Source of the DNA: Capitulum mitella
Taxonomy: Eukaryota > Arthropoda > Thecostraca > Pollicipedomorpha > Pollicipedidae
Direction of reading: 5' to 3'
Length of the DNA: 64,000 nt
Assembly (NCBI GenBank): GCA_030062745.1
Contig: CP099839.1
Location: forward strand, 37,900,816 to 37,964,815
Shown here: piece by piece, positions 5,248-62,129 of the stretch
How positions within the stretch are numbered: position 1 is the stretch's first letter
How the letters are laid out: each line of letters starts with the position of its first letter
Made by a program: the position numbers and the translations under genes
Notes under the pieces: generated by a model
What the model saw: the letters and a program-made list of their open reading frames with translations, nothing else
Told to the model about the DNA's origin: nothing
Databases searched by the model: none

Positions 5248-8200
5248 CTAGGAGCTCTGCGTGGTCTGCAGGAGCTGGCCGCCGGCCGTGTGCGCCCGGT
5301 TGGTGATGCCCGAGATGGACAGGCCGCCGGCGAGCCGATCGCCGAGCAGGCGCGCCAGAGACGCCTTGTCGAGCAGGCCGGCCTCTGGCTCGGCGTCCAG
5401 CTGGCAGGCGCCCTCCTGCAGCCGGCACAGCACGTCGGTCGGCAGGAGCGGGCCGGCGACGGTCGCCGGCGGCGGCGAGCTCGACCCGCTGTAGGTCATC
5501 ACGCCGCCCGACGTGGCCACCTTGTCGGTGGGCGCCGGCGAGACGGCCGCCTCCGGGCGCGCCTCGGCCGCCCGCTCGCGCCGGCCCGGCCGGTCCAGGT
5601 GGCGCTGCTTCACCTTGTACTCCAGCGTCGAGTGCGGCACGCCGTAGAAGTTGCCGGCGCGGTGCACGCTCATCTCGCCCGACTGCACGGCGCGCACTGC
5701 CTCCGCCAGATGGGTGCGGTTGTAGTTGCGGTACTTGCCACGCTTCGGCCGCGAGCCCTTGGCAGACGGCTTGGCGCTCTTGGCCGGCGGCCCGGTCACC
5801 GTGTTGTTGTTGTTTTCGGCCAACTCCAACTTGCGTTTCTTGGCGGCGGTCGGCGGCGGAAGCGGCTGGCCGCACAGGTCGTCGCCGCTCCTGCTGTCGC
5901 TCAGCTCGGCCGCCGTGTCGGCCGACCGCGGCGGCGGCGGCTCGTCCTCCGAGACGGCGCCGTCGCCGGGCGCGCGCAGCTGCGCCAGCACCTCGCGGAA
6001 CCGCTCGTGCGACATGCGGCGCACGAAGTCGTCCCACACGGGTGGCTGGTCGGCGCGCGGCCCGGCCGGCTCGCGTGCCTGCAGCGCCCGCTGCAGCACG
6101 CCGCTGTACATCCAGCTCATGACGGCGCGGATCGGCTCGGCCGGCGCCTCGGCCGGCGTCGACTGCGTCAGACGCGCCTGCAGCAGCTGGCAGGCCGGGC
6201 CCGGCTCGGCCGGCGCCGCGGGGACGGCGGCCGCCTCCTCCGGCGGTGGCAGCGGCGGCGGCGGTGGTGGTGGTGGCGGCGGGGGCGGGGGCGGGGTCTC
6301 CTTGGCGGCGCCCGGCCGCTCCCCACGTTTCTCCTGCGCGGCCAGACGGTACACCTTGTTGCGCAGCGTGGAGCGCGGGATGCCGTAAACGGCGGCGGCG
6401 CGGCGTGTGCCCAGCCTGCCCGACTGGATGTCCCGCAGCGCCGCCTGGAGCTCCTCCTCCGTGTACGGCTTCTTGCCGGGCAGCGGCGCCTCCGCTCTCC
6501 GCGCCGGTCGGCTGCAAACGGAGTACGCGGTGTGAGGGTGAGTCGCCGATCGGCGACCGAGCTGCGCCAGCTTGCCGGAACAGCGGCCAGGCAGATACCG
6601 TCCCTCCCGGCATCGTCACCACAGCGGCAGAAGCTTCCTAACTGTGTCCCGCGGCTCTCTTTCCAGTGCTGTTCTAGTATTCACTGTACCGAAACATGAG
6701 AAAGGCGAGACTGCAAAACACTCGTCAACGCGCCATGGTCACGTAAACAAACAAGTGCCGCGCGGTTCGGCACTCTACTGCTGTACTGACCTGCTGGCCG
6801 AGGGTGGACGGGACGGACGGGAGCAGCTCAGGTCCAGCGGCTGGTCGTCCGGCGCGCCGGCCGACGCCGCCGACTCCTGGTCAGCGCCGATCGCCATCTG
6901 CCGCCAGACGGACCGCCCGTCACATAAAGGCGCGCCCATAGCGGCTACCATTCGCAAAACCCGCCGGCCGAGGCCGTCTCAAACGTCTCCACGACCACCG
7001 CGAAATCGCCACATTTTTTTCGGACGACGACGGCTGACCCCATAAAAACAGCACGAACTGGGACACAAGCCGTCCCTCGAACTTCGACCAAGAACAGCGG
7101 ACAGGTGACGTGACCAGCCTGCGCCCGCTGTCAGACAACCGACACTGGCCGGCGTCCCTACCTTGCTGGCCAGCAGCGTCTGGTACAGGGAGAAGGTCTC
7201 CGTCCAGGAGAGCAGGTCGGGCACGCCTGAGCGGTGCTGGGCGGCCAGCTGCTGCAGGCCGGCGGCCGCCGACACGGCCGACACCACTGTCGGCACGACG
7301 GCCGCCTCCGGGGGCGGCGCGGCGCAGCGGTTGGCCGGCATCGTCCAGCTCTGCAGGAGGACGGGCGCCATCACGATCACGGAAGTCACAACACAATACA
7401 CCGTTTGGCCGGCATCGTCCACCTCTGCAGGAGGTCGGACGCCGTCACGATCACGGACGCCACAATATAACATTCATCAATAGTAAAAATGTGCCAATGA
7501 CAGATCACGTGATTGGCCCAAACTTATTGGCATCTCGATTTCTGATGCTGAATACCGTCAAAAGACAGTGACAAATGGCACTTAGATTTTAAGGATGTAC
7601 TCTGAAAGAGTAATTTCAAAGTCCTGATCGCCGTCTACGCGTTTTCTTTTGTACCATGGCTAAAAGAGGGGGTACATGCTTCTTCTTTTAATAACAGCCA
7701 ACGTGGATATTTTCATGCGAACATTTAAAATGACATTTCACCAAAAGCCCAAATTTCGGCAGTTGACAGCCCGACCTAGAAAGGCATGGCACAAAACATT
7801 AGCAGCTGTCAGTACGGTACCAACTCGGATAACAATGACGGACTTTGCATTTGCAAACTGAACTTCTTCCTCAGGCCGGGCTAATTCGATGGAGCTGGGA
7901 CTGAGACCAAGTTCCCGAAGTTCCGTGTCGACGGCAGCCACCACAAAGACGTGCCAACACTTGGCGTCCCGATCCGTCACCTCACCAGCGCACGACAGAT
8001 TCCCGCCTGTCACAGACGGCCGCTCTCCGACCCACAGTGGCGGCCCGGTGCCCAGGCCGGCACTCGCTATCATCGCACACAAACAGCCACAGAGCGCGCG
8101 GCTGCGGCGCAGCGCGGCGCGGACAGCTCCGCCGCGCCCTGGCGGACGCGCTCCGGCCCACTTGCCTCTCGGTCGTACACTGGCGCCATGCGCAAGTTCA

Positions 8201-37460: not shown

Positions 37461-40400
37461 CTACGGCAGGTCCAGCCGAGGCGGCGCCGTCATCACCAGG
37501 CCCTGGTCGTCGTCGTCGAGCGCCTCGTGCAGCAACGAGGTGTCGGCGTGGCCCTCGCCCGGCCCGGCGCCGCCGGAGGACTCGGTCCGTCCCGGCGCCG
37601 CCGCACCGCCGGCGGAGGTCGCGTTCTCTCCGGACTCGTCCGGCGCCGTCCCCGCCGGGACAGCCTCCGTGACGGTCTCCGCAGGCTCTGCAGTCGTCTC
37701 CGCGCCTCCCGCCGGCACGGTCTCAGCGGAGAGCCCCGGCGTGATCTCGGAGACCGCTTCCGACGAGCTGCCGGCCCCTGTTTCCGGCGCGTTTCCCAAT
37801 GTCGGGCCTCGGAGGGAGCGTCAGCGCCGGCAGCCCCGACGGGCGTCCCGGGCGCCACCTCGGGCTGAGCGGCGGTCGTGACCGGCCCGGCGGCTGCCGC
37901 TCCCCGTGGGGCCGCCGCTGCCGCCGCCGCGCCCGCCGGCTCCGGCTCCGGCTGGCTGTCCTGCAGGAACTCCTGCAGCGGCGTCACCAGCGTCTGCACG
38001 TCCAGCGTGGCGATACCCTGCCGACGCCAGACAGAACGTCACTTCTGTATCTCCAGCTGGCATTCTCCTCAAGATGGTGCCAATGGACGCATCAACGAGC
38101 CGAGTCCGCATGAACACCAAACGCCAGCGGCAGTGAGCGGTGCATGAACGCGGAGGCCAGGCTCATACAGCACGAGACGTCCCTGAAAGTATTCTATCCA
38201 CTAGTGACTTCCAAACACTTCACTAGCAGAAAACCGTCGCATCAACCACCTCTACAAATAAGGCAGAGCGCGACAAAAGGAGTTTTAAAGCGCTGTGGAG
38301 CACTTCCAGATTACAGATAAACCACGGTAGAGCTAGGCGCTCGAGGCCGGGGGAGGGGACAGAGGGGAGACGAAGGCGGCGCTGTCGGAGCGGGCCCGGG
38401 CACCACGTACCCGTTTTTGCGCGGCGGAGACGGAGAGGCCGAGCGCTGGCGCCAGCTGATCGGCCGGGAACACGGCCGCCAGACAGCGGCTCAGGTAAGG
38501 CACCAGGTCACGCGCCAGGCACCGGCAGAACCGGCTGTAGCTGCGCCTCTCGGCCTCCGTCAGACCCTGGCTGTCCTGCGGGGGGGGGGGACGGGGAGGC
38601 GTCAGTCACCGCACCTCAACGTAGGCGGGTACGGACTCCGAACATCGGAATGTTTATGTCGGCTGCACATGACGTGAGCCGCGACAGGCCGGAGGAGGCT
38701 ACTGAGAGACTTGGTCCTTCGGCAAAAAAAGCAGTTATTTTTAGACATGGTGCGCCTGATATCATTCCGCTACATGAAATGCAGTGCACAGCGCTCTAAC
38801 GTGATCTGTCTCGCATCATGACACTTGTTTATCCCTAAATGGTAAACCCCAGTCCATCCCGTACATCGCCTTCATTTTCAGGGACATACCCGTATTTCCG
38901 CTCCAACTGGTCGACGAGCGGCGACCCACTCGCGCTACGATTAAGCGTTGCCTTGCCTTCCATGCAGTGTGGTACAAGGCAAAGGCCTTTCCCCGTCATG
39001 CATTAGGAGTTAAGTAAAACTACCTTCAGCAATACGAGGTCGACGGGGCAGGCGGCCCATGTACAGTTCTGTACGGCAGACGTGGGCAGCCACCTCGTAA
39101 CGTACACAAGACGCCAGAATTCCGTCCTTATCATGTGACCGATGCTGACCACCCGTCCGTTCCTTGGAGCGTGTCCAACTGTCCGTACCGTGTGCTGGAT
39201 GTCTACAACTCGTTCGTACCGTGTGAAAGAGGTCCATAACTGGTTCGTACCGTGTGGCTGAGGTGTATAATTCGTTTGCACCGCATGTTAGAGGTCGATG
39301 ACCCGTCTGTGCCGGGTGGTAGAGGCCTATCACCCTTCCGTGACGTTTGGCAGAGGTCTATAACTTGCCCGTGCCGTGTGGCGGAGGTATATAACACGTT
39401 TGTACCGTGTGGTTCACGTCTATAACCTGTCTGTATCGTGTGCCAAAGGTCTATAACCCGTCCATACCGTAAGGTAGAGGTGTGCAATCCGTCCGTAACG
39501 TGTGGTGGAGGTCTACAACCAGTCCGTAACGTGCAATGGTCTATAAACAGTCCGTGCCGTGTGCTAGATGCCTATAACCCCTCTGCAACGTGTGGTAGAG
39601 GTCTATAACGCGTCCGCACCGAGTGACAGAGGTCTACAACCCGTCCGCACCGTAAGGCAGAGGTCTATAACCCGTCCGTGCTGTGTAGTGGAGGTCTATA
39701 ACCCGTCCGTGCCGTGTAGTGGAGGTCTATAATCCGTCCGTGCCGTGTAGTGGAGGTCTATAACCCGTCCGTGCCGTGTGGTGGTCTGTAACCCGCCCGT
39801 GCCGTGTAGCAGAGGTCTATAACCCGTCCGTGCCGTGTGATAGAGGCCTACAATCCGTCCGTGCCGTGTGATGGAGGTCTATAAACAGTCCGTGCCGTGT
39901 GGTGGAGGTCTATAACCTGTCCGTTGCGTAAGGTAGAGGCCTATAACCCGTCCGTACCGTGTGGTGGAGGTCTATAACCAGTCCGTAACGTGTGGTGGTC
40001 TATAAACAGTCCATGCCGTGTGCAAGATGCCTATAACCCATCTGTAACGCGTGGTAGAGGTCTATAAGCCGTCCGTACCGTGTGGTAGAGGTCTTTAACC
40101 CGTTCGCACCGTGTGGCAGAGGTCTATAACGCGCCCGCACCGAGTGACAGAGGTCTACAACCCGTCCGCACTGTAAGGCAGAGGTCTATAACCCGTGCGT
40201 GCTGTGTAGTGGAGGTCTACAACCCGTCCGTGCCGTGTAGTGGAGGTCTATAACCAGTCCATGCCGTGTGGTGGAGGTCTATAACCCGTCCGTACCGTGC
40301 GGTGGAAGTATATAACCTGTCCGTACCGTGCGGTGGAGGTACACCCTTGTGCAAATTAATCGACTCAGTACAGTTTTTCCATGTTTTTCGAAGATACTGT

Positions 40401-43400
40401 TTTGTTATACAATCACACAATGATTTCCACTATCACAGTCATGTTTTTTAACAATGTTTGTTCGTAGGCTTTTATAAGAGCTTTTTCAAAGTGAGTTTGG
40501 AACCAGTGTGTACTGCGCATGCGCGAACTTTGGTTGGCTGATGCGTCAGCGGCATTGATTCACTGAGCATTCATCGTACACACACAACAGCTCTAACACA
40601 ATAGACATCACGCCTAGGCAGCCGACGAAGATTTTTACTTTATTCGAACATTCTGAGAAGTCACAAAAAGAGATCGCTAAGATAACTGGTGTCAGTCAGC
40701 ACTCAGTCTCACGGATTATAAAACAAGGAGTTACTACTGGATCTCTGTCACCAAAACGAAAAGGGAATTGTGGAAGAAAACGAAAAACGACGCCGAGAGA
40801 TGATCTGTATTTGATACGTCAAAGCAAATTTGCACCACGAAAGACTAATGATGATCTGCAAAAAGATCTAGCCGGATCTGGAATTAGTGTAAGTTCGAGC
40901 ACTGTTCGAAGGAGGCTTCTAGAGACCGGTCGGAGGGCTCACAGACCACTAAAAAACAACTTCTTACAGAGAAAATGAAGGCTAAACGTTTGTTATGGGC
41001 AAAAAAGTACCGGCACTGGACAAAGGAAGACTGGCGGGAAGGTCATGTTTTCGGACAAAAGCCATTTTTTCGTTCAGGGACAAAGGAGTCAACATATCCG
41101 ACGCTCTCCTGCTGAGAAAGTCCGTGAAGGTCACATCAACCAAACCGTGAAACACCCCGAAAAGAAAATGTTTTGGGGTTGTCTCAGTTTCCGTGGCGCG
41201 GGATCACTTCATCCTGTCGAAGGAATGATGAAATCTGCCCAGTACATCGACGTGATTCGGAGAAAGGCGATTCCAGACATGCAGAAGGCGTTTCCAGATG
41301 GTTCAGGGGTTTTTCAACAGGACCTGGCTCCTTGCCATATGTCGAAGATTGTGACCAATTTTTTTTCAAAACAAACAAGATAAATGTTTTGGACTGGCCG
41401 GGAAACTCGCCGGATTTAAATCCTATAGAAAATTTATGGTCTATCATAAAGACTCGTCTCCGCAAAAAGGATTGTACAACCAAAACCAAGCTGATACAAG
41501 CCATAATTCGGGTCTGGTACCACGACGAACAAATAAAAGAAAACTGCGAAAACTTGATAGATTTCATGCCCAAGCGGGTTTCTTAAGTGCCAGACAATAA
41601 AGGTGGTCATACTACGTATTAAAATGTGAAAAATAAGAAGAAATTACGTGAATAAATCATTATTTTAACAAAAACTATAATTTTTATTGTTTTGAGTGTT
41701 TGAGTCAATTAATATGCACAAGGGTGTATATAACCCGTCCGTACCGTGTGGTAGAGGTCGACGACGCGGCCGACGACGGCCGTCAGACTGTCTCGGAGCC
41801 GTCCGGCCACCTGGTGGACCAGCCCCAGCGCCGGACACAGCCGCAACTCGTTGAAGGCAGACAGCAGGCCGTTGCAGTAGTGGGCCAGCGGCAGGTAGTC
41901 CAGCAGCGAGAGCGGCGGTAGCAGAGCGTCCTAGGGAGGTGAGCACGGCTACAGTGACCACAAGCTCCAGGGACCACACGCTCGCAGCCAACTGAACAGC
42001 GGTGAAGGCGGCGGCAGGCGGCCCTCCGTAATGAATGGCTACAGCGGACAGTCGACTCAACGCAGAACGCAATCAATATATTCGCAGACTTACGGCGGGG
42101 GTAACAGAGGGAGGTCTTAGGTCGAGATTCTCGTTTGTAGGCAAGCAACAGGTGGAACAGAATTGTAGGCAAGCAACAGGTGGAACAGTCATTTCAACAC
42201 TGGCTATAACATTCCCTTCATAAACGATGCAAGCCTTCGACGAGACTCACTCAGGATCTTCCTCTCTGATTGAGCAAACTAAAATATCGTTTGGCAGGCG
42301 TCTGGCGACCACCACACAACCCTTCATCAGCTACATTCTTCTGAGACTAAACAACAACGTCATGAAGTCACTATGATGCAACAGCTGCCCACTTTATTGT
42401 TGGCTTTGGACCACCCCTCTGGCTTATAACCCCCATCCACCGCAGTTTCTCTCTCACCACAACTACGATCCCTCTCCGAAGTTTCCCGGTTCCCTAGAAC
42501 CCGTGACCGGTTCTCTCACCTGCGACGAGCCTGCGTCCGGGACGGAGACGCCCGCGGGCACGACACGGGCCTTCATGCAGGTGAAGGCGTCCATGTTCTG
42601 CCTGAACCGGGCCGTGGCGGCGTCCACGGCGCGCTCGAACTGCGCCAGCGCCGCGCTCTGGAAGAGCGGCGCCGCCAGCGGCCGCAAGGTCGGCGCCGAT
42701 CCGCGCCAGGCTCAGGCCGAAGTACATGGTCTGCGAGAGCAGCGAGTCCAGCCGGCCGCCGACGCCGCGCGCCAGGTCCTGGCGCAGCGTGTTCAGAAAC
42801 TGGTCCACCTGTGGGAGCGGACGGACTGTCAGCCTCTTCAGTACAGCGGTACAGCGTGTTCGGAAACTGGTCCACCTATCGGGAGGGCGGAAGGTCAGCT
42901 CATGTACCCGCACGGCGTGTTCAGAAACTGTCAAGTCCACCACAAGGGAGGAAAGGAAAGAACAGACAACAGTCAGACTGCTTTAGCCAAAGCCACACAA
43001 TGACCTAACAAGACCTCGGACCACGATGGCAGAAAAACGTTCATGGCAAACTACCAGCCAGAGGCGCTGGAAAATTCGATAAACTACTGAAACAGAGCCT
43101 ATCTATAGAGCAGTTCACTCCCGCAAGACAAGTCATATTTAACCCAGATCGACTAAAGTCCACCACCTCGTGCAATGCAGTTAGTGTGACCAGCTCTGAC
43201 AGCAGTCGTCTCAGACAAGCGGTGCGGCCCACCTTGAGGTTGATCCACTCGTAGAAGATGGCGGGCGCGGCCTCGTCGGTACCGGCCTGCAGCAGCGCGC
43301 TCTCGTCGCTGAATACGGCCCGGTACTGGGTGACGATGTCGAACAGGCCCACCCGGCTCACCTCGATCGTCTTCGATATGTGGTGGTACGCTGCCGGCAC

Positions 43401-46400
43401 AATTACAGAAGTGGTGATATGCTGACGCCACAGTTACAGTACTGGTGGCAAGCTGTCGGCACTACTGCTGGCGTGGCGGTATGTTGACGGCACAATGACA
43501 TTAGTGGTGGTACATTTTCGAGACAATTACAGTAGTGGTGGCACGCTGTTGACACAAGGAAAGAAGTGATGGTACAATGTCGTCACAATGACGGTAATGA
43601 TCGCACGTTGTTGGCACAATTACAGTACTGAAGGTACGCTGTCGGCACAATTACCGGTAGTGGTGGTACGCTGTCGGCACAATTACACTAATGGTGGTAA
43701 GCTGTCGGCACAATAACAGACGTGTTTGTACACTGTCAGCACCATTTCAGTTGTGGAGGTACGCTGTCGAGACAGAGAAGTGGTGTCAGACTGTCGGCAT
43801 AATTACAGTAGTGGGGTACGCTGTCGCCTTAGTTACAGTAGCAGTCGCATTTTACAACACTGCCTTACACAAAATTACAACAGTGCATGCAGTCCAGCTG
43901 GCGACCGGTCCACTGTCGGCACCCTCCCGCTCCCCCCCCCCCGACGGGGGGCACCAGTTAGTGACCAGTTCACGGTCAGATTCCGCCCACCACCACTCAC
44001 GGTCGTCACGGCTGATGTTGGCCAGCTGGTCGTCCAGCCAGGCGTTGCGGGCCTGGAGAAACTTCAGCCGCAACTCGAACTCCGTGTACACCTCCATACG
44101 GCGCAGGTGGCCTGACGAAAGAGCGCGCGTGTCACAGACGGCGAGCAACGCGGACCGCACGGGGATGAACCGACACGGACGGCGGACGCGGACCTCGAAA
44201 GCAGGGGTCCGTGTGGCGAGCCGTCACTAATAACGAGCGGCTCCCCCGCTAACAGCGACACGTAAGATCCTATCAGAGAAGAGTCGACTAGCTTGTTCGT
44301 TCAATTCGAGGCGAGGCTGTCAAATCCAGGCCTGTCCGGGTTTACATCCACAAGTGCGGTCACATACCGATAACCTTCAGACACTGCGGCAGCTGGATGT
44401 TGGTGCGGAGCTGGGACACCAGCTGGGACAGCATCAGACGGTATGCCATCTGGACGTCACTGACGATACTCTGAAACAACAACGACATGTGGTTTACACC
44501 ACGGCGTCTGACTTATACTAGCTAGGAAACCATCACACGATGCGCTATCAGTACGTCACTGACGATACCCTTTGGTAACACCACCGCGATCACATCACAA
44601 GCCTGGAATGATGTCAGGCGGGACAAAATCACACGTTCGTCCACCGGCGTGTGCGCGTGTGTCTGCGTCACCGGCGATACCATTCAGCACCATCGACTGA
44701 ATAATTCCCCTAGATGTCACGAAAACTGCCGCACGGCTTCGGTACACGCCGGCACACATTCAACGGCGCTAGATTCGGTCACGCGGGCGAACTAGAGAGC
44801 TTCGGCGGACCGGTTTTCCCGTTCTCTGCGCGTCCGCCGGAGCAGAGGGCGGCCGGCGCAGCCCTCGGTGCCGACCGGCGGCGCCTCCGACCGGTCCAAC
44901 TCACCTCCACCAGCTTAATGTTGCCGTGCTTCTTCTCCAGCCCGCGCACGTGCGTCACCAGCTCCATGGCCTGGTCGTAGTAGCCGTTGCGGACGCCGGT
45001 GTCCATGAGCTGCGGCAGCTCGAGCACCTCGAGCAGCTCGGTGTGCTTGGTGAGCGTGGACGTGTTGAGTCGGCGCCGGGCGTGGATATCGGCGCCGCGG
45101 CGGCCGAACTCGGCGCAGCGGGCCGAGAACTCCGGCAGCTCGGCCAGCAGGTGGTCCAGCCGCTCCTCCACGGCGGTAAACTGCAGCACCCGCAGGAGGG
45201 CCGTCACAGGGTGTCCTACACGGACAGATGGTCCAGCCGTCCCTCCACAGAAGACAGTTATCGGGGAGGAGGGTCAGAGTAGGTGCAACAAAGACAGGAC
45301 GCTCAGCTGCTGTTCCTCCACAACAAGCAACAGGGGAAGGGGTCCGTGCAAAAGCATAGGTACGTGGATGATTCAGGCGCTGTGACATCGAGATGAGACA
45401 GCTGCCACAAAAAGGCACAAAAGAACAATTGCCTTCTCGGTAAGAAACGAGCCCAAACACATTTACCATTCCGGAAAAAAAAACAGCCCAGTCCACCTTT
45501 CTCCTGACAACGACACGGCGCCAGGCATTGGTCACACTACAACGCCATCCACGTCCGTGAGCCGGGTATTCCTCCCACATATAACGGCGTCGGGGTGGCA
45601 GACTCCAGGCAGCCCTCTCCCAAACGCCCTGCGTTCGCCGTCCGCCGTCCGCCACCCTACACGGCACGGTCACTCACCTCCCGCAGCACGGTCACTCACC
45701 TCCACGGCACGGTCACTCACCTCCACGGCACGGTCACTCACCTCCCGCAGCACGGCCACTCACCTCCACGGCACGGTCACTCACCTCACGCAGCACGGCC
45801 GACGAACACTCGGCCGTCTCCACGAACGTCTTGTAGTTCTGGAACGCCAAGTCCTGGGTCTGCTGCAGCGTGTGCGCCATCTCCTCCTGGATGCGGGCCC
45901 CCTCGGTGCCTGATGGCAGGGCGGGATGACGTCACAGCCAGGCAGAAGCAGACTGCAACACGGCTGGCGCATCTAGACGCATGTGGCTTCGTGCGCGCGG
46001 GGAGGAAGGCGTCGACTGGGCTGGACGTCAATCCAGCCTGGCATCGACTGTCCTTTCCGTCCTGAATGCGTCAGTTTCAAAGGCTGAAGAACACAGTTCT
46101 TTGCGACACATTGCGTCCCCGATTTTTGAGTGTCTTTTATCGGACATCGACAAAAGATCAAGATATTTGGCTGTAGTGGCTTGATATATCCAACACACAC
46201 TGAGACATCCTGATGTCAACATCCACAGAATTCATGTTCTTTTGTACCACTGTCATGGCTAAATTAGGACTCTTCACGATGACAACAGGCCAATTCATTT
46301 GCTGCCGCCGACTGAGCAGGCTCGTACAAAACCACAGATGGTTTTATTATGATCTATGAAAATGAGCATTGCTGCACGATGGCATTTTATGCTCCTTATT

Positions 46401-49400
46401 TCAATTACGTTGTATATCTAATCTTTCAGAGACCAATAAGCTAGGAGCACAATGAGGAATTCGCCCTGCGCTGGAACATGCAGGGCGAATCTACACCACA
46501 GAAGACGAAAATGACGTTTCAAGCCATGATGGAGGAAAGTAGAAATATAGCACAAAGCAATTTAATATCATCGGTTTGGATCGCACGAGCTTACTCATTA
46601 CAAACAACATGTCACAAAATGAGACCTTTCAAGATCAGGCCACAATCCAATGCAAGCTGTAATTCTTTTGAAACCTTGTACAGTGTAATTTTAAAGTAAA
46701 CTTGCACTTATTTGAATATGCACACCAATATTGCAGAAATTTGTCTTCACAATGAGGGGGAGGCCCAACAGCTGGCTGATGGCCGACCAGCCTGAGGACT
46801 GGACCATGTGACCAGCCCTGAGACTGGACAGCTGGATCTGGACCACATGACCAGCTCCAAGACTGGACAGCTCACTGGCATCTAGACCACATGACCAGCT
46901 TCGGGGCCAGACAGCTGACTGACACCTGGACCACATGATCAGCCCTGAGACTGAACAGCAGACCAGTGTCTGGACCACGTGATCGGCCGAGACTGGGCAA
47001 CTGAAAGGCATCCAGATCATGTGACCAGCTTTAAGGCCAGACAGCTGAATGGCATCTGGACCATGTGACCAGCCACCACCATGCTGACCAGCGTTTGGAC
47101 CACATGACCAGCCCTGAGGCTGGACAGCTCACCAGCAACATTGCCACATGACCAGCACTGAGACTAGACAGTTGTCTGGCATCTGGACCATGTGACTAGT
47201 CCTAAGACTGGACAGCTGACCAATGACATAGCCTGAAGTCTGGACCATGTAAACAGCTCTCGGACTAGACAGCTAAACATGTGGCTGAGATCCTCCAAAA
47301 GAAATAGGCAGAATGCACAAACAGAAACCACCAACAGCAGAAAGGTTGGGTAGAGGTAAGACAGCCAATGCATACTCACGCAGCTTTTCCACCCCAAAGG
47401 TGCTGATTTGCGCCAAATAGTTGTTGACCTCAACATCATTTTCCAGCTCTGAAACGGTCAGGGCAGTAAGCGTACCTCATTACTGCAGTTCCCACATAAA
47501 TACTCAGCATAAATTCTATCTTTTGCAACTGTCACGACAATTTCTAATATTAACTTACTTTACAGTTACAGGTGCAGGTCAACCCAAAGACTTACTGGAC
47601 CTGGCGGTCACACAACACATTTTCACAGAGCACTTATTTTCCGGCAAAAATAGCATAAATAGCATAAAAATCATACAACATATGGTTTTAAGGCAACTCA
47701 TTGTGATCCAGCACTGCATAGTGAGGATGCACCGGATATCCAGTCCGGCCGGATCTCCGGCCGGATATTTGAGATTATCCGGTATCCGGTATCCGAGATA
47801 TTTCCGTGATCCGGCTGGATATTGCCGGATATTTGGCATTGCGGTGTATGACTGAGATTGAAATGTTCACCAATAAAACCGTTTCAGAAGAAACATGCCT
47901 TGTTCCATCAAACTGTCGATGTGCCTGACAGTTCCAAGGTCTGTATAGAGCACTACTTTTTCTTCTTAGTTCGGAAGGGTTGAGACATTATTTGCAAGGG
48001 TTGTACTCAAGCTCCATGTAGTGTAACAACAGCCAACATATGCTCGGTCGTCCATTTCGCATCATCTTCCTATTTTCCAAACATTTTTATTTGTCTCAAA
48101 TACTTTTGTCCAAATTCATTAACCCTCGCCCATTACAGGAGGGGCGGGGGCCTGGTGCAACCACTGCTGAGGTTTTCCGAGGGTCAAGAGCTTATGTCAT
48201 GTGGTCATGAGCTACGACGGGAAACATTATTTTCTCTCTTTGGGGATTCCATAGGAAACAGGTATTCCAAAACAACCTAGATATTCGGACTGGTCTAGTT
48301 GTATGGAATCACATGGTACACATTTCGTGCAGTTTATCTTTTATTTCATCTAAACAGGACACAATGCAGCGAATGCCTGACTTTTGCTCCGACGGGCGGA
48401 GCGGTGTCGGCTGCGGAGAGATGAGTCTGTAGTGCGAAGGCATGCCTAAAACTCGACTTTGTACACTCTTAAGGTATCTAAGTTACGATTTTCAGCCAAA
48501 TCGCGGTCACCCTAGGTCAATGGCTTCAGATGACCGCGGATGACCTAAGATGACCCTTACATATTATTTGACAACAGCGTTTGATAACTGAGATGGTACA
48601 TTTGATTTCAGCATTTATCATTGTTTACAAAAAATGCTTCTACAGCTCCGAGAACGCATTTAAGCCGACGACCCCGCTTGACAAGCATTGACCTAGCATG
48701 ACCCGGATCGGACTCCGTGGGTGAAATACAATCATGTGATGTACAGATAGATTCATAATTGATTGACGAACAATATGATATCCGTTCCGTTTCATCATCA
48801 TTTACTCTTTGACGTTCATTTGCACTTAAACTCAGAAAAGTGCAATTTTCTGTCAATCTTTGACATTTGACCCGATCTGGAAGGTCATCCGTTGACCTAA
48901 GAGCTTAAAAAGGGATGCCAGTCGCGAGATATCGTCACGTGCAACACGCTGTTTTTCCGCGACGCTCTAGAACGCAAGGTGCTGAAATGGCTGGGGGGTC
49001 GTACCAACCTCCCTCCCCCTACAAGTCCGCCTTGGGCAGAAAGCCCTATACGGGCAAGGGTTAACGGCCTTGGCGCGGCCAAGGGGGGGGGGGCCTGGGA
49101 GCCCGGGCTTCCTCCTTAGGCCCACAATTTCTGTGAAAACCATTGCACATCGTCTTCCCAGCACGCGGTTTTCGTATCATTTCGGTTCGCACCGGGCTCC
49201 GGTCCCCCTTCTCAAGAAATCCCTGGTTGCGATCCTGGTTAAGGAACAATATACCTCAGTGGACATACCTTACTATTTGTACAGATTGCTTATCAAGCCA
49301 GCTATTTGAGGTCAACCTGGGCGCTATCATGGCATTCTGCACACTCTGCAGCCGTAGCCCTTTGCATTCAGCCAGAGACGGTGACCGGTGGTCCACGCTA

Positions 49401-52016
49401 TGATCGCTGTGTTCCTTATTTATTCTTTTTTTACAATGAAACATGCTTAAACCTCGCAGTAACTCTAAGCGCCAGGTGGAATGATTCACAAACTGTTAGT
49501 ATTCCTTTTTATTTAATATTTTCCAGCTTTTCAGACCTTCCTTTTTCAGCACATCCTTTTCGTCTCATTTTCCAGCAACAAACAGCAAATAAAAATAGTT
49601 ATCCATAATATCCGGTATCCGGCCGGAAATCCGGCCGGATATCCGGCACCCCGATCCGGCACATCCGGTATCAGGCCGGATATCCGGCACCACGATCCGG
49701 CATATCCGGTATCCGGCCGGATCGCACAAATCCCGATCCGGTGGGTCCCTGCTGCATGGTATCATTCCAAGCTGAAGAAAGTGAAAAAATACGAAATAAT
49801 ATAGTCACTCCATTCGTCGCTGACCGCCGTGACACTTGTCCGACTGGTTTCTGCTGGGATTCCCCAGAAACAAATTCAAAAAGGGCAATTTCCAAGGTTG
49901 AGGTATTTGGATCTTATGATGTCATCAGTAAATGCTAAATGAATAATCAACAAGATTACCAAATACCTAACCTAAATCAACCTAGCCTAACCTAACCTAA
50001 CCTAGCCTAACCTAACCTAACCTAATCTAATCTAATCTAATCTAACCTAACCTAACCTAATCTAACCAAATGCAACCTAACCTGTTTAGACATGCAACCT
50101 AACCTCTGTTACACACAGCCAAGTCCGATCGCACCCTTTATCGATCCGGGTCTCTAGCTTCCTATACCATGCTTCCGGCGCGGGGTTGCGTCTTCGGCCC
50201 AATATTACGCCCGTGAATGTCCCTTTATCAGCCTGTGGCCTCTAGTATCATTTATGATGGCGTCATCAAACGTTATGCCGTACAAAGGCGTCCGAGGAGC
50301 AAAGGCAGTATAAACACGACAGCACCGCCGTTTCCGGTCGCGTTTGCTTACAGTGAAATACAACTCCATTTCCTTTGGAAACCATACCAGAAGTGTCATC
50401 ATTTCTTTCTGGTATTCTAGGTGCAGGCCTCCCACTTCTCATATTTCAGAAAATCCGTGTAGTTACCAAGCCATACAAGCGTCAAAACATGCACAGTAAA
50501 AACGAGGCCAGTTGCAGATGTTGTCACCATCACCACCTCCTCAAAATAATGTCTTGAAGTGATTCAGCCACCCACCACCCAAATACCTCAGTCAATGCCA
50601 GGATAACAGTCTTGTCCAATATCCCATCACTGCACCAGTCCCGCTTCTGTCCGTATCTACTTCTATCACATGATCCTTGTTCCCATCCTTTCTGCCCCTC
50701 CCCCTTGCAGTCCCATCCCAATCTACTCCTTGTCTCATTACAGTCCCCTTTCCTCGGTCCTATTCCACATTGTTTGCAAGAGGGATGAGACTGGGAGAAG
50801 GAGATGTGCAAAGAGGGAACAAGGATCATGGGATAGAACCAAATACACACTGGAACAGAACTGGTGCAATGATGGGATATTGGATGGGACCATTATCCCA
50901 GCACTGACCAGGGTATTTCATCACCTTCCACAGAACAAGGGAGCCTTTAACAACCCAGCTCTATTTATCTGGAGAACCAGCCACACAATTTGGCCCTTCA
51001 AACACCAGTTGATAGCCCCATCCCCATTACTTGTCCCTGTCCCATCCCCACTTCCTTACTTATCCCTTTCCAAGCCCAGTCCTTTTTCATCATTCTGTCC
51101 TAATACCCTTCCAAGCCCATTCCATTAGTCCTCATTTCCCTCCTAACCTCTTCCAGGTCAGGTCCTCCATATCTCTGTACTGTCCCAGTTCCCTTGTCTG
51201 TCCCTGTTCCCTCTGAGACACTCATGCCCTTGTTCAGTCTCAATCTACCTCCCTGTCCCATTCCAGTATTGTGAGACAGCCACATTTTGACAGGTCTTTC
51301 AGTGATGTCATATTTTCTCTTGTCAACTGCCAATGCTTAAAAGCTGATGTTGATCTGTCTTGCAGAGATACTCCATGCTTTGAACTCTTGCAAGTTGTTG
51401 AGGTGGTGGATGGATGAATCACTTCAAGAGATTATTTTGGGAAGGTGGTGATGGTGACAAGGCACTAAATGCCTCTGACTGGGTTATTTTTTAAATGTGC
51501 ATCTTTTGGTACCCATATGGCTTGGTAACTACATGGATTTTTCCAGTCATGAGAAGCAGGAGGCCTATGCCTAGAATACCTTCTTTCTTTCATGGGATTT
51601 TTTACGTGTTCTTCTGCATCTTAAATATAGCAAAAGTGTCTGTAAAAAGATAAATATGTGAAGCATTGCAAACCTGATTCTGTCCACAAAACTTATAGAT
51701 GTAAAGGACTGCATTCTTCTCAGCTATCAGTGCTACCCAAAGAATACTTTTTAGGACACAATGAGGTGCTCCATTTCCATACTGCTTCAAACTCTTCAGG
51801 TGACAGCAAAGCCTCTAAAAATAACTGCATACAACTCCCAGTGGAGTCAAAGTATCTTTGTTAAGACATCCACATATGAACACAGATCTATAAAGTAAGG
51901 TGTAAAGACATCTATGTAAAAAACAAGGTGTAAAGACATCTATCATGACCTTTATACTTACCTTTCTCCTGTCCAGGAAAGAGTCTATTTAAAAGTTCTC
52001 TGTTACTCTCATCCAT
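37461..52016 (-). CDS. COG8: Conserved oligomeric Golgi complex subunit 8 (COG8), 11 coding exons
   Basis: COG8 (Dor1 family) belongs to lobe B of the COG tether, which captures retrograde vesicles at the Golgi. Minus-strand exons: 52016-51962 (ATG), 47448-47380, 45909-45785, 45180-44905, 44470-44368, 44111-44001, 43390-43233, 42808-42520, 41930-41745, 38575-38411, 38017-37461 (TAG). All junctions are AG/GT and all phases agree. Conserved words include [66 protein letters not shown] (across a junction), [19 protein letters not shown] and [12 protein letters not shown]. The predicted length is about 695 residues against roughly 610 in human; the excess is a low-complexity acidic, Ala/Pro-rich tail. 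Exon 8 has one extra base at 42686-42687, and exon 11 changes frame near 37800-37830. Intron 1 is 4.5 kb and full of repeats. Several splice junctions are tandemly duplicated into the introns. Confidence 0.93.
39170..40340 (-). repeat. 31-bp minisatellite derived from the COG8 exon 9 / intron 9 donor junction
   Basis: About 37 head-to-tail units of roughly 31 bp fill intron 9 next to exon 9. On the minus strand a unit is the last 15 bases of exon 9, GACCTCTACCACACG, followed by 16 intronic bases, GTACGGACGGGTTATA. The first unit is the real exon end itself (41759-41745) plus the intron start. A Tc1 element at 40342-41726 separates it from the rest. Many units keep the GT of the donor; others have GC or TT there. 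Some units are shortened. Confidence 0.92.
40342..41726 (+). mobile_element. Tc1-family DNA transposon, inserted in the minisatellite
   Basis: A 1385-bp element is flanked by TA on both sides (40340-40341 and 41727-41728). Its terminal inverted repeats are about 25 bp; the left one starts CACCCTTGTGCAA and the right one ends with the complement. They differ at only a few positions. It interrupts a single minisatellite unit at that unit's TATA word, which shows that the array is older than the insertion. The short TIRs and the DD34E transposase place it in the Tc1/mariner superfamily, Tc1-like. Confidence 0.95.
40601..41586 (+). pseudogene. Tc1-like DD34E transposase, inactivated
   Basis: Frame pieces encode the N-terminal helix-turn-helix ([18 protein letters not shown]) and a GRKRK linker. 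The catalytic domain follows: first Asp in MFSDKSHFF, second Asp in FQQDLAPCH, and Glu in [11 protein letters not shown], 34 residues after the second Asp. The expected start codon is ATA at 40601. The frame breaks three times: a lost A in the A run at 40951-40956, an extra base near 41041, and an off-length T run at 41359-41366. The stop is at 41584. Two of the three breaks are in homopolymers, so some could be sequencing errors, but the missing start codon suggests a truly dead copy. Confidence 0.9.
42801..42935 (-). repeat. Duplicated COG8 exon 8 acceptor, three degenerate copies
   Basis: The exon 8 start, read on the plus strand as GTTCAGAAACTGGTCCACCT, reappears at about 42860 (GTTCGGAAACTGGTCCACCT) and, decayed, at about 42920. 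Spacing is 60-68 bp. Each copy carries the first exon bases plus adjacent intron; the middle copy retains an AG at the acceptor position. Confidence 0.8.
43379..43850 (-). repeat. 31-bp minisatellite derived from the COG8 intron 6 / exon 7 acceptor junction
   Basis: About 15 units of roughly 31 bp lie in intron 6 directly upstream of exon 7 (exon start 43390). On the minus strand a unit is about twenty intronic bases ending GTGCCGACAG followed by the first bases of exon 7, CGTACCACCAC. The real junction is the proximal unit. Units diverge moderately and a few are truncated. Many keep the AG, so they look like repeated acceptor sites. Confidence 0.9.
45160..45250 (-). repeat. Duplicated COG8 exon 4 acceptor region
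   Basis: Exonic GTGGTCCAGCCGCTCCTCCA (plus strand, from 45151) recurs as ATGGTCCAGCCGTCCCTCCA at about 45227-45246 inside intron 3. The copy is about 75 bp further out than the exon itself. Confidence 0.75.
45658..45795 (-). repeat. Six tandem copies of the COG8 exon 3 splice donor (21-22 bp unit)
   Basis: Exon 3 ends GAG (45785) and is followed by GTGAGTGACCGTGC. This GAG/GTGAGTGACC donor repeats about six times at 21-22 bp spacing, alternating between GCCGTG and GCTGCGG linkers. Every copy keeps a near-consensus GTGAGT. Use of a 21-bp-spaced donor would keep frame and add seven residues per unit (VSDRAVE type). Confidence 0.92.
46780..47280. repeat. Minisatellite of about 45-50 bp in COG8 intron 2
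   Basis: Degenerate units contain CTGGACCACATGACCAGC, then CTGAGACTGGACAGCTG. About eleven copies lie head to tail. Each unit has an E-box-like CACATG or CACGTG. I found no match to a nearby exon end, unlike the other COG8 arrays. Confidence 0.85.
47721..49751. mobile_element. Putative non-autonomous hAT-like element in COG8 intron 1
   Basis: Opposed clusters of CCGGATATCC-type words lie at 47730-47840 and 49607-49745. The ends match as imperfect inverted repeats: GAGGATGCACCGGAT on the left, and the complement of CAGGGACCCACCGGAT on the right. CTGCAT flanks both sides, compatible with part of an 8-bp target duplication. No transposase is readable inside; the core holds ordinary AT-rich sequence with scattered TGACC words. 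The superfamily call rests on end structure only. Confidence 0.45.
49963..50107 (-). repeat. Interstitial arthropod telomere-type repeat (TTAGG/CCTAA)
   Basis: CCTAA units run nearly head to tail with scattered TCTAA and GCCTAA variants, then decay after about 50060. TTAGG is the ancestral arthropod telomere repeat. Here it lies inside COG8 intron 1, so it is interstitial rather than a chromosome end. Confidence 0.85.
50385..51600. repeat. Second diverged inverted repeat (foldback) in COG8 intron 1
   Basis: The left arm, about 50385-50700, pairs in reverse complement with about 50810-50930 (inner part, around GGGAACAAGGATCATG) and about 51395-51600 (outer part, around GGCTTGGTAACTACA and GAATCACTTCAAGA). 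The right arm is interrupted by about 460 bp of CT-rich sequence (about 50935-51390) absent from the left arm. Confidence 0.75.
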
Positions 52017-53809: not shown

Positions 53810-56800
53810 TTCCAGAACGGACTCGATCTTGGCGGGACCGCCGCAGGCCGAGCCTGCCGGCTCCGCCTCCAGCTGCAGCGGCTCGTGCACGAAAGTGTTG
53901 CGGCCAGTCTTGAAGTCCTCGACCGTGTTGCCGGAGCCGTGCAGCACCCACTTGGTGGTGAGCAGGCCCTCCACGCCGACTGGGCCGCGCGCGTGGATCC
54001 GGCCCGTGCTGATGCCCACCTCAGCGCCCAGCCCGAACCGGTAAGCCGTCGGCGAAGCGCGTGCTGGCGTTGTGGAAGACGCAGGCGCTGTCGACGCCTT
54101 CCAGGAAGCGGGCCGCCTCGGCCGCGTTCTCGGTCACGATCGCGTCGGTGTGGGCCGAGCCGTGCTGGTGAATGTGCTCTATGGCGTCGGCGGTATCGTC
54201 TACCATCTCGATGCAGCACTCGAGGTCGCCGTACTCGGCGCGCAGCGAACCGGCCAGCGGCGGCCCGAACGTCAGCTGCGCGTGCAGCCGTGGCCCCGAG
54301 TGCAGTTTCACGCCGTTCGACTGCAGCAGGTGGCAGATGGTGTCGAACAGATTGGGCACCTTCATCAGGTCTTTGTGCAGCAGCAGCGTCTCCATGGCGT
54401 TGCAGGCCGCCGGGTAGTCGCACTTGCTGTCTTTCACTGCAAAGAGGACACGCAAGATACGTTTTAAAGAGCATTACGGATTATGCTGCCTGGATTTCAA
54501 CAAGATTTCGTTGATCGCGATCACAGCTGTATTAATCTCGTAGTGCCTTGACTGTACCAAACAACAATCGTCGTTGGAGTACACTGGCGTATGCATTACG
54601 ATGACGTCTAATGCATGCACATACGTACACCCGGACACGTAGCCAGGATTTTCCTCACGGGGGGGGGGGCAAATGTGAAATTTCGTCACATGCCACCATC
54701 ATATGGCGAAATGTATTGGCAAAACAGCAATTTTATGTAACTTACCTCGTATTTAACGCACAGGAAAACATACAATATTTGCTGTTGCAACATATATATA
54801 ATCACTATTTTGTATTCGTGCGAAACCGCCGTATATTTAGTGAGGACCGCTTAGCTCAGGGGGGCCATGGCCCCCATGGCCCCCCCCTCTCATTGGCTAC
54901 GTCCCTGCGTACACCACACAATTTAGTTTTGTGTCGTACCGATCTGCATGGCCTTCTCCATGTCGGCATCCTTGTCGATGTAAACGTGACAGACTCCTTC
55001 GCTATGTCCGAGCACGGGGATGTGCCGGCTCTGGCTCTGAATGTGGCGCACCAGCTCGCCGCTGCCGCGCGGGATCACCAGGTCGATGCAGTCGTCCATC
55101 TGCAGCAGGTCACTGATCTCCTCCCTGCCGCTGACCTGGGATCAAACCGGCGTTGTCAGGTACAGCCATCTCCGACAGGTCATTGATCTCCTCCCGGCCG
55201 CTATCCTGGGGTCAGAGAGGGGTTATCATGAGGCCTTCTCCATGTCTGAAGCACGGCACCGGTTACCTGCTGAGGACTCGCTGATACCTGCTGAGAGATA
55301 CCAGCCCGCCATCACTGACTGCAAACCCACGGACACGGCGACAGATCTCCAGCTTAAACAAATGATCGCACAAGAAAAGCAGACACGGGCTCTGCCGGCC
55401 TCAGGACGCCGTCGCCGTCCGCGGAGCAGACGAAGCAGATATGCGGCGGCGGTACGTACCAGACCGACGGCGCTGGTGGCTCCGACGGTGGACAGCGCCT
55501 CCTTGACCAGGGTCATCAGGAACTCGTTGCTGTGCCTGGCTTCCCGGCCTCCCTTCAGCAGCAGACCGTTGCCGGTGCTGATGGCCAGTGAAGCCACCTG
55601 CCGGATGGCGCGGCTGCAGTGTCACCGCCGTCCAACAATTCAGTACGATGGTCCGTCTGTGTGCCGTTCTTACAACACTTCCATTACGACCAAATGTGAT
55701 CTGAGGCTCTCAGAATCGATCATTGCTCGGCGCAAATAAAGGATAACTGAGGCACTAATCATCACAGCTTAACATGTTTCTTCGCACTGCGCTACGGCAA
55801 AATGAACTCTGAGCTTCTCAGAATGCAGTTCACAGTACTACTCAAGGCTAACAGGGCGACTAGTGACAATCGCTCAGGGCTTTTTCTCGAAAGCGGCTGA
55901 CAATACAACAATGCATTTGGACTGGCTGGCCTGCAAAATCCAAAACCTCCAGATATTCCCTCAGCCGCCCGGCGGCCGGTTCGTCCACGCCCACCGAGCG
56001 GCGGCGGCGGCGGCCGGGCGCTCACCTGCGGCAGACAGTCGGGCCGCGACTCAAAGATGACCATCAGCACGCCCAGCGGCACGGTCACCTGGCGCAGCTC
56101 CATGCCGGCCGCCAGCTGGGTGCGGCGCAGCACGCGGCCCAGCTGGCGGCGGCCGTCGGCCGCGATCTGACGCAGCCCGCTGGCCAGGTCGGCCAGCTTC
56201 TCGGGCGTCAGCCGCAGCCGCGACTGCAGCGCCGGCGGCAGCCGCTCCTTGGCCGCCTCGCGCAGGTCCTTGTCGTTGGCGGCCAGGATGTCCTGGCAGC
56301 GGGTCTCCAGCAGGCCGGCCAGCGTGGTGATGACGCCGGCGCGCTCCTGCCAGCTCAGCGACTGCAGCACCCGGCTGCCGCGCCGCGCTGCCGGCCACAC
56401 GGGCCCGTCAGACGGCCGCCCAGACGGCTGGACGTGACGTCACAACAGTCGGAGCGGCACACAATCGAACCGAAACCAGAAAAACCCTCTCTCTCTGATG
56501 AGGACGGCTAACCAGTTTTGACGTTTCTTGAGTTTCGACAAGGTCTGGTGCGGAAGATCAGCTGGAGAAGGGCAGAGCTCCCAGCACAAAAAAAAATCAA
56601 CGGCCTACTTTTGTGGCAACCTCATCAATCGTTTTCAGTGCACCTCTGTACAGGCGTAATTTTACCAACAAATGGGCACAAAACAGCGAGCGCGACTATC
56701 ACCGGACGGCGCATGCCATAAAGACACTGACGAAAAACTCACCGCCCTTGGCCAGAACCTCGACGGCCGCGCCTCCGGGGTTCTGCTTGGCGATGAAGGT

Positions 56801-59800: not shown

Positions 59801-62129
59801 CGCCTACCCGCGTACTATCTCAGACAACATTTCAGTCTGAAGGCCGCCCTGGCCAGGATGGCAGCGGAATCGTCAAGGCCGACGCGTTTCGGACCGCCTT
59901 CTGCAGCGGCCGAGTGGGCCGCACCGGCTCGGCCGCTCCACATCAGACGTCACGTCACAGCCGTCAGCACTCGGCCGCTCCAGATCACAGGTCACAGCCG
60001 TCACCACTCGACCACTCCAGATCACAGGTCACAGCCGTCACCACTCGGCCGCTCCAGATCACACGTCACAGCCGTCACCACTCGGCCGCTCCAGATCACA
60101 CGTCACAGCCGTCACCACTCGGCCGCTCCAGATCACACGTCACAGCCGTCACCACTCGGCCGCTCCAGATCACACGTCACAGCCGTCACCACTCGGCCGC
60201 TCCAGATCACACGTCACAGCCGTCACCACTACGAGAAGGCGGCGACAACGTCTGATCATCATTTCGGTTAGCGCAGCGGGGCTTTACTACCCTTGCCCCC
60301 TCCAACTTACGATATGCAAGCTGCCGGGCACATCATAACGACATACCTGTGTGGTACATATAAGCTGCTACACGAGCATTCCCAGTTCCACCATACTCCA
60401 CCGTCGACGTTTTCTTTTTTTAAGAACTGCAGGCAATCACTGAACTACAGGCAACTACAGGCTATCACTGAACTATATTAAGAACTGCAGGCAATCGCTG
60501 CGTTAATCTGAAGCCGATAACACACCGAAAGCCATTTTAATAAACTGGCGCCGAAAAAGCATATATCAACGAGACCTATGCCTCTGAGCAGCGGCAAGGA
60601 GTGCGAGCCCTGCGACGGGCGTATGCAGAATCACGGCCCGTGACCCAGTCCGCCCGGCGCCGTGTTACGTCAGATACCGGCTGCGGCGCGCGTTACAACA
60701 CGGACGCAGGTTACGACGCCGCCGGCCGGCGCGCTGGCCGTGGGCGTGGCCGCCCCGCGAACGCGGCCGTCTGAAGGGTTCGGGCCGAGGGCCGGCCGTG
60801 GCCGTGACGCGGGCCCCGGCCGCCGGCCTCACCTGGGCTATCCGGACGCCGTACTGGGCGAACATGGCGTCGTAGAGCGACATGAGGCCCGACTGGCCCA
60901 CGGCGGCCGCCGCTCTCGGCTCCAGCGTGTGGATGCCGCTCTTCTGAAAGCGTACACCGACTCGCTTTATGGCGAGCTTGCTTTTGTTCAAGCCATGCGA
61001 GTGGATCAACGGCACCAAAATATCATTAAAAGAAAGTTCTCGTGTATGGAACTTCTCTCACGCGGGACACTGGCGTGTGTTTTAATCTCACGGGCAATTC
61101 TACGTAGATGAGATATCATGGGCTGTCCAAATGTTCTCCAAAAGATATAAAATTGGGATTTCTTTAACGATATAAAGCAACCGAAAGTCTTGGCACGCTG
61201 ACATAGTTCAACAAAATCTCACCTTCATGGCCATCAGTTATAACCTCCTACCGACGAATTTAAGGAAATAGAAAAATAGTTTGTTAGTAACAGCAGTACC
61301 AGTCACTGCGATCAAGTCAAAACAGTGTGATGACGCAAGCGTGAAGCGTAAGCACCGTTCATCGTTTCTACCTTGGCTTTAATCTGGTTGTTGCCCGATA
61401 TGGTCTCCCTCATGCTGAGGAGACATAATGAGCTCTTCTGTCAGCTTCTGCTTGCCGAACGCTACCGAGCCTGACGTCACCATCAGGCATTCGCGGCCTT
61501 CATTCTGCAGTTCCGCCACCTGTCGTAAGGCCACATCAGCCGAACATCAGTGCTCTTACGAGGAACGGACACCGATCTCAAGCGTTACGACTATTGCAAT
61601 ACGCCATCGCGTAGTCAGTCGTTACACACGGATAGTTAATTACGTTTATGACTAAGAGGCAAACGAAAAACAGTGCTGCCTACCTTTGGATGTGGCCGTA
61701 GGTCAGGCAGACGTGTCCTGAACAATAGCGGAACAGAACGTTTTTCTTCCGAATCAGCAGTACGCCTACAAAAGAGCCGAGAACATTGCTATTCCGGTCG
61801 GGCAGGTTCGATTGGCCGCTGAGAACGTATGCGACAGATCTCCGACCAAATCTCTGTCGAATCACTGCGCACCGGCGTCCCACTCGACCCAATGGCGAGG
61901 GACGCCGCGCGTCGTGAGGCCCGCCCGCAGCCGGACCGCGCCGTCCCACCTGTTCCACGATGGAGGCCAGCCGCCCCAGCGCCAGACCACACTCGTCCTC
62001 GCGCGTGATGACGGCAGAGCCCATCTTGACGACGATCCGGCGCGAGTTCTTCAGCTGGCTGCGCTCTTTGAAGGGGACCAGGCTGGAGTCCGAGGTCAGG
62101 ATTGTCCGGCCGCCCGGCTGACCGCCATT
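53807..62129 (-). CDS. ALDH18A1: Delta-1-pyrroline-5-carboxylate synthase (P5CS, ALDH18A1), nine exons, N-terminal exon missing
   Basis: This bifunctional mitochondrial enzyme makes P5C from glutamate with ATP and NADPH, for proline and ornithine synthesis. Minus-strand exons: 62129-61950, 61519-61372, 60943-60833, 59398-59246, 57124-56743, 56387-56026, 55597-55460, 55135-54940, 54436-53807 (TGA). All junctions are AG/GT and phases agree, giving 765 residues. Glutamate kinase domain (about 30-318): [76 protein letters not shown]. Reductase domain (about 325-760): [42 protein letters not shown], the presumed catalytic Cys in [12 protein letters not shown] (about residue 568), and STRF with [20 protein letters not shown] near the end. 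One extra base breaks exon 2 (about 61421) and another breaks exon 9 (about 54043). The presequence exon was not found. Confidence 0.96.
55085..55215 (-). repeat. Duplicated P5CS exon 8 acceptor (70-bp offset)
   Basis: The exon 8 start, read on the plus strand as GGTCACTGATCTCCTCCCTG at 55108 and ending CTGACCTGGG, recurs at about 55178 as GGTCATTGATCTCCTCCCGG ending CTATCCTGGG. The outer copy lies in the intron and keeps a CCAG acceptor-like end. Confidence 0.85.
57125..59245 (-). other. P5CS intron 4, nothing recognised
   Basis: This is the longest P5CS intron. I see no coding exon, RNA gene or clear repeat in it. One tRNA-like TTCGA word near 58650 does not fold into a T-arm. Confidence 0.5.
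59925..60240. repeat. 37-bp minisatellite in P5CS intron 3
   Basis: About eight units of 37 bp run head to tail. Each reads CACTCGGCCGCTCCAGATCA followed by CACGTCACAGCCGTCAC. The inner units are nearly identical, which implies recent expansion; the first ones (59925-60010) are more diverged. Each unit has CACGTCAC, a CRE/E-box-like word. No match to the flanking exon ends was seen. Confidence 0.95.

Follow-up and report, generated by a model that had tools for sequence, protein, structure and literature searches.

Tandem copies of splice junctions in the introns of COG8, P5CS and chaperonin genes of a crustacean-like genome

Tandem repeats that span exon-intron boundaries have been described from amphioxus, where they are termed "mirages" (PMC3087553, PMC3902484). 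A related form occurs in human genes within segmental duplications, which carry internal tandem repeats at exon-intron boundaries (PMC2812944), and intron gain has been attributed to tandem genomic duplication of exon segments that carry AGGT, as reviewed in PMC3443670 and with Drosophila cases in PMC2891723. The structures described below resemble the amphioxus mirages in that the units span the splice junction, either border of the intron can be copied, AG or GT lies within the units and the copies are intronic; they differ in coming from another animal group, in reaching up to 39 units and in the clustering of five or six cases in a single gene. In amphioxus the tests extended to regular splicing and to polymorphism in length, whereas the present cases are known from the sequence of one assembly. 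The human repeats share minisatellite units of about 30 bp placed at exon-intron boundaries, but many of them are exonic and alter splicing (PMC2812944), while in the present genes the coding frame seems to be unaltered. When introns are gained by tandem duplication, exonic sequence is likewise copied together with splice signals (PMC3443670, PMC2891723), but a new intron is created with both borders from one segment, whereas here introns already in place become longer, with a copy of just one border. Among open-access titles and abstract openings no boundary-spanning repeats were found for an arthropod, only the amphioxus and related human forms, and priority is unproven.

In the window, a stretch of 64,000 nucleotides, the minus strand encodes a homologue of COG8 (Dor1 in Pfam, E 2.3e-105, the match covering residues 34-367 of 536), a P5CS (match to structure 7f5t, the fly enzyme, E 1.1e-282) and, at the left end, a Psq-domain exon that the original prediction named E93. 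Ten introns were placed in COG8 and eight in P5CS, where exon numbering starts from a partial first exon, and all 18 are GT-AG. Apparent single-base frameshifts lie in COG8 exon 8 (about 42690), P5CS exon 2 (about 61418) and the last P5CS exon (about 54044), and are perhaps consensus errors; no P5CS was found in viral contigs. COG8 intron 1 holds interstitial CCTAA repeats (49965-50083) of the TTAGG type, the arthropod telomere repeat, and two stretches rich in ATCCGGCCGGAT palindromes (47730-47840 and 49608-49741). Minisatellites in COG8 intron 2 (46799-47274, 44-bp units) and P5CS intron 3 (59928-60230, 37-bp units) touch no junction and were counted as intron-only. The genome comprises 16 contigs and 477 Mb, and 16 chromosomes have been reported for barnacles (PMC8416341, PMC11331182); this number and the CCTAA repeats suggest a barnacle.

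Each 40-bp splice-junction window was aligned to its own intron, and 24.6 kb were compared with themselves without gaps at a score of at least 14. This self-comparison returned 140 matches against a mean of 0.2 in dinucleotide-keeping shuffles, so the copies are not due to chance. In COG8, exon-edge sequence is tandemly copied into the adjoining intron at six of 20 splice junctions, the donors of exons 3 and 9 and the acceptors of exons 4, 5, 7 and 8 (Table 1); the other 14 COG8 junctions and 15 P5CS junctions yielded no copy by the junction-window or self-comparison measure. Five of the six, together with the edge of P5CS exon 8, had been named beforehand from inspection of the DNA, and copies are indeed present at all of these, although at exon 4 in part only; the acceptor of exon 5, with its copy upstream, was absent from that list. 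The exon 4 match does not itself cross the junction, and in the 40-bp window test this acceptor reached z 4.9 in one run, where it matched the exon 3 donor array, and at most z 4 in another. An E93 exon had also been cited as copied likewise, and a copy is seen upstream of the E93-like exon, alike at 23 of that exon's opening 26 nucleotides and with the CTCCTGCAG acceptor duplicated; the case is graded as probable, the borders of this exon having been set by GT/AG and open frame only.

Table 1. Junction-linked copies and an inserted element in the window
Feature	Position	Strand	Exon nt copied (outer array edge inside exon)	Details
E93-like exon acceptor (probable case)	7325..7465	-	about 26	exon start 7350; two copies 74 bp apart
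COG8 exon 9 donor array	39180..41759	-	15, in junction copy (15)	exon 9 = 41745-41930
Tc1/mariner-like element	40340..41728	+		inverted ends 28 nt with 26 matches; HTH_Tnp_Tc3_2 and DDE_3
COG8 exon 8 acceptor	42785..42930	-	24 (24)	67-bp unit, 2.3 copies; exon 8 = 42520-42808
COG8 exon 7 acceptor array	43380..43841	-	11 (11)	31-bp unit, 15 units; exon 7 = 43233-43390
COG8 exon 5 acceptor	44418..44571	-	53 (53)	two copies 99 bp apart; exon 5 = 44368-44470
COG8 exon 4 acceptor side	45148..45248	-	nt 10-33 only (33)	copied 77 bp upstream; exon 4 = 44905-45180
COG8 exon 3 donor array	45656..45800	-	16 (16)	steps 21/43/64 bp; exon 3 = 45785-45909
P5CS exon 8 acceptor	55096..55228	-	40 (40)	two copies 70 bp apart; exon 8 = 54940-55135

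The cases fall into stages, from two copies (exons 4 and 5, P5CS exon 8) through two to three (exon 8) and a short array with six exact GAG/GTGAGTG donors (exon 3) to the long arrays of exons 7 and 9, the last with 39 units of about 31 bp when the junction copy is included and a Tc1/mariner-like insert is set aside. This element, whose open frames are broken, splits the exon 9 array and is no part of the duplication mechanism. A 1-kb query containing part of it matched at least 39 other genomic places at 92-96% identity among the matches listed, which makes the family a recent one; the array unit itself was found nowhere else in the genome among the matches listed for the 39180-40341 part.

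The repeats had been described as starting exactly at the splice junctions. They do not: between 11 and 53 exon nucleotides are copied too, which places the outer edge of every array inside the exon. The exon edges involved belong to conserved coding sequence (the P5CS exon 8 edge against 7f5t, those of COG8 in Dor1), so the exon was the source of the copies and the intron their recipient. In the four old cases (exons 4, 5 and 8 of COG8 and exon 8 of P5CS) the exon-derived part is identical at 122 of 150 positions (81%) and the intron-derived part at 102 of 159 (p=9e-4), the latter equal to the 64% that random pairs gave under the same alignment procedure. Selection freezes the exon copy while both intron copies drift, which would by itself account for the apparent start at the junction; a mechanism in which similarity begins there was rejected on the extent of exon copied and the faster decay on the intron side. 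In the three arrays exon and intron parts are both alike, as in homogenised minisatellites, and the units of the two long arrays, at exons 7 and 9, differ from their consensus at about 16-17% of positions. Copies had also been noted to spread into introns and never into exons, an outcome that selection on coding sequence would produce in any event. The copy nearest the exon is probably the functional splice site, judging from the reading frame and the conservation of the protein.

Whether junctions are hit more often than other sequence depends on what is counted. By windows there is no excess over random positions in the same introns (6/36 against 263/1442 at z>=4, p=0.66), while junction windows exceed exon interiors, of which 3/239 reach z>=4 (p=2e-4) and 0/239 reach z>=5 (p=3e-6). 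With the junction-linked arrays removed from the intron windows, which were drawn with the Tc1-like transposon still in place, the 6/36 stand against 116/1390, 98/1390 and 88/1390 at z>=4, 5 and 6 (p = 0.08, 0.04 and 0.03). Counting events instead, that is 16 of 17 clusters once a match of low complexity within exon 11 of COG8 had been dropped, seven of the 16 tandem duplications in COG8 and P5CS cross a junction, and simple models of uniform placement expect 1.2 gene-wide (P=4e-5) or 2.1 within the same introns (P=6e-4). Leaving out exon 4 and two weak events gives 6/13 (P=3e-5 and 4e-4), and a two-fold detection bonus, granted where selection keeps the exon side of an event from changing, takes P to 0.002 and 0.014; all of these P values derive from the very window that prompted the idea.

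Replication was sought in two further families, with introns accepted where neighbouring exons could be joined by a GT-AG solution; pairs lacking one were omitted, which may bias the outcome either way. For the chaperonins (PF00118) 59 of 61 rows were used, the exceptions being C2:23572307, with an open frame of 1796 aa, and the long hit C7:19461942; the set excludes loci L009-L010 and L011-L040, and introns were resolved for 36 of 49 exon pairs. For the adaptins (PF01602) 37 of 39 rows were used, two on C1 having been dropped, and 14 of 29 pairs were resolved. The 36 chaperonin introns hold 17 events, six of which cross a junction by at least 8 nt where 2.6 (P=0.03) or 3.0 (P=0.05) would be expected, with P rising to 0.2-0.3 under the detection bonus; two of the six are weak, one being an exon-interior match and one lying at threshold, and at a score of at least 17 the figure is 4/13 against 1.7-2.1. 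Two more arrays touch the donor by 5 and 7 exon nucleotides and were excluded from the count. In L048 an intron array of more than 1 kb (5039-6146, oriented) has a unit that repeats the donor with an exon overlap of only 5 nt. An acceptor array in L043 has a unit of about 55 bp that occurs 12 times, with AG kept in 11 and 34 exon nucleotides included; in a donor array of L048 the unit measures about 35 bp and occurs 15 times, with GT kept in 14 and 24 exon nucleotides included. The chaperonin examples match those of COG8 in clarity, so that COG8 is not alone.

The 14 adaptin introns gave three events, none of which crosses a junction, and copies at 0/28 junctions. Pooled with the chaperonins, 6/20 events cross against about 3.5 expected (P about 0.1), and windows at z>=4 number 7/100 at junctions (5/100 at z>=5), 307/2062 in introns and 6/648 in exons. 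Across all sets together 13/36 events cross against 4.7-5.6 expected (P 1e-4 and 7e-4; the detection bonus raises these to 0.018 and 0.054), and there may be a modest excess of junction-crossing events. The statement in the original prediction that such copies are far more frequent than expected thus fails by windows, holds by events in the discovery window and is weak in other genes; that they mark a genome-wide mode of intron growth is supported in part, the same structures being present in chaperonins on other contigs but at none of the adaptin junctions.

Set against the features reported for mirages, the unit lies over the exon-intron boundary at COG8 exons 3, 5, 7, 8 and 9 and P5CS exon 8, in part at exon 4, and in the chaperonin loci L042, L043, L044 and L048. 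Both 5' and 3' borders are involved, with two donors and four acceptors in COG8 and both kinds in the chaperonins; unit lengths, 21-99 bp in COG8 and P5CS and 35-71 bp in unambiguous chaperonin examples, fall within the 10-160 bp of amphioxus; and splice signals recur in many copies (exons 3 and 7, chaperonin arrays). We favour, at a probability of about three in four, the reading that these are mirage-type minisatellites, ordinary tandem duplications that happened to lie over junctions and were tolerated there, with lengthening of the introns. Slippage, end-joining or unequal exchange would generate short tandem duplications, mostly of 20-100 bp, along genes. Selection would purge those within coding sequence, while intronic and junction-crossing ones survive, the latter presumably because the exon-proximal splice site still yields a normal mRNA. 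The anatomy shows the outcome: copied exon edges with their splice sites are now intronic, and some have grown into arrays (six or so donors at exon 3, 15 units at exon 7, 39 at exon 9, 12 and 15 in two chaperonin introns). In the old cases the intron part has since decayed to chance, while the exon part stays 81% alike, so that similarity seems to begin at the junction. Tandem duplications are dense in the introns of this genome, and junctions are often hit on that account.

A process targeted to exon-intron borders, through R-loops or a GC step for example, would instead make junctions mutational hot spots. The seven crossings among 16 events in COG8 and P5CS and the pooled 13/36 speak for it; on the other side stand the lack of any excess by windows in either data set, the drop of the event excess to 6/20 against about 3.5 outside a discovery window that was chosen for this very feature, the 0/3 in adaptins, and the slower exon-side decay that makes junction cases easier to detect. 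Targeting as originally proposed is accordingly unlikely, and so, to the same degree, is the corollary that junctions are true hot spots, about two- to three-fold over nearby intron, with introns growing inward from their splice sites. Birth of the introns by tandem duplication of an AGGT-bearing exon segment, the copies being remains of that birth, would leave donor and acceptor edges as copies of one segment. There is no such signal in 17 of 18 introns, which score 11-20, within the spread of mismatched pairs; the surroundings of donor and acceptor of COG8 intron 3 are somewhat alike (45165-45200 against 45720-45757, score 26-27), but this comparison was made post hoc, against a null that included overlapping windows from short exons. 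In each case, moreover, a single border is copied, and we regard this origin as very improbable. Taken by itself, the likeness of exon 4's acceptor side to the exon 3 donor unit gives a weak hint of birth by duplication for intron 3.

Another rival to the mirage reading is that selection maintains the copies as spare splice sites or decoys, an idea favoured by the six identical donors of exon 3 and the well-kept AG of L043 and GT of L048. Splice dinucleotides are, however, no better preserved than their neighbours: the donor GT is intact in 41% of the 39 exon 9 units, rank 28 of 30 dinucleotides and thus among the least conserved, AG is intact in 73% of exon 7 units (rank 6 of 30), and the chaperonin arrays rank 7 of 54 and 14 of 34. 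GC often replaces GT in neighbouring exon 9 units, so that few independent events lie behind that rank, and because array units are not independent the test is weak either way; even so, the proposal that copies are kept as spare sites finds no backing here and we give it very little credence. An assembly or consensus artefact, at which the apparent frameshifts, one in COG8 exon 8 and two in P5CS, might hint, is scarcely credible given units that diverge from their consensus, copies of different ages and recurrence of the pattern on other contigs.

If the mirage reading holds, boundary minisatellites of this type would extend from cephalochordates to a new animal group, represented by a crustacean-like genome, in which a copy at z>=4 at seven of 100 junctions in two housekeeping families indicates that they recur. 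Introns carrying 12-39 similar donors or acceptors amount to natural experiments on how the spliceosome chooses its sites, and the arrays illustrate an ordinary route by which introns become longer with the protein unchanged.
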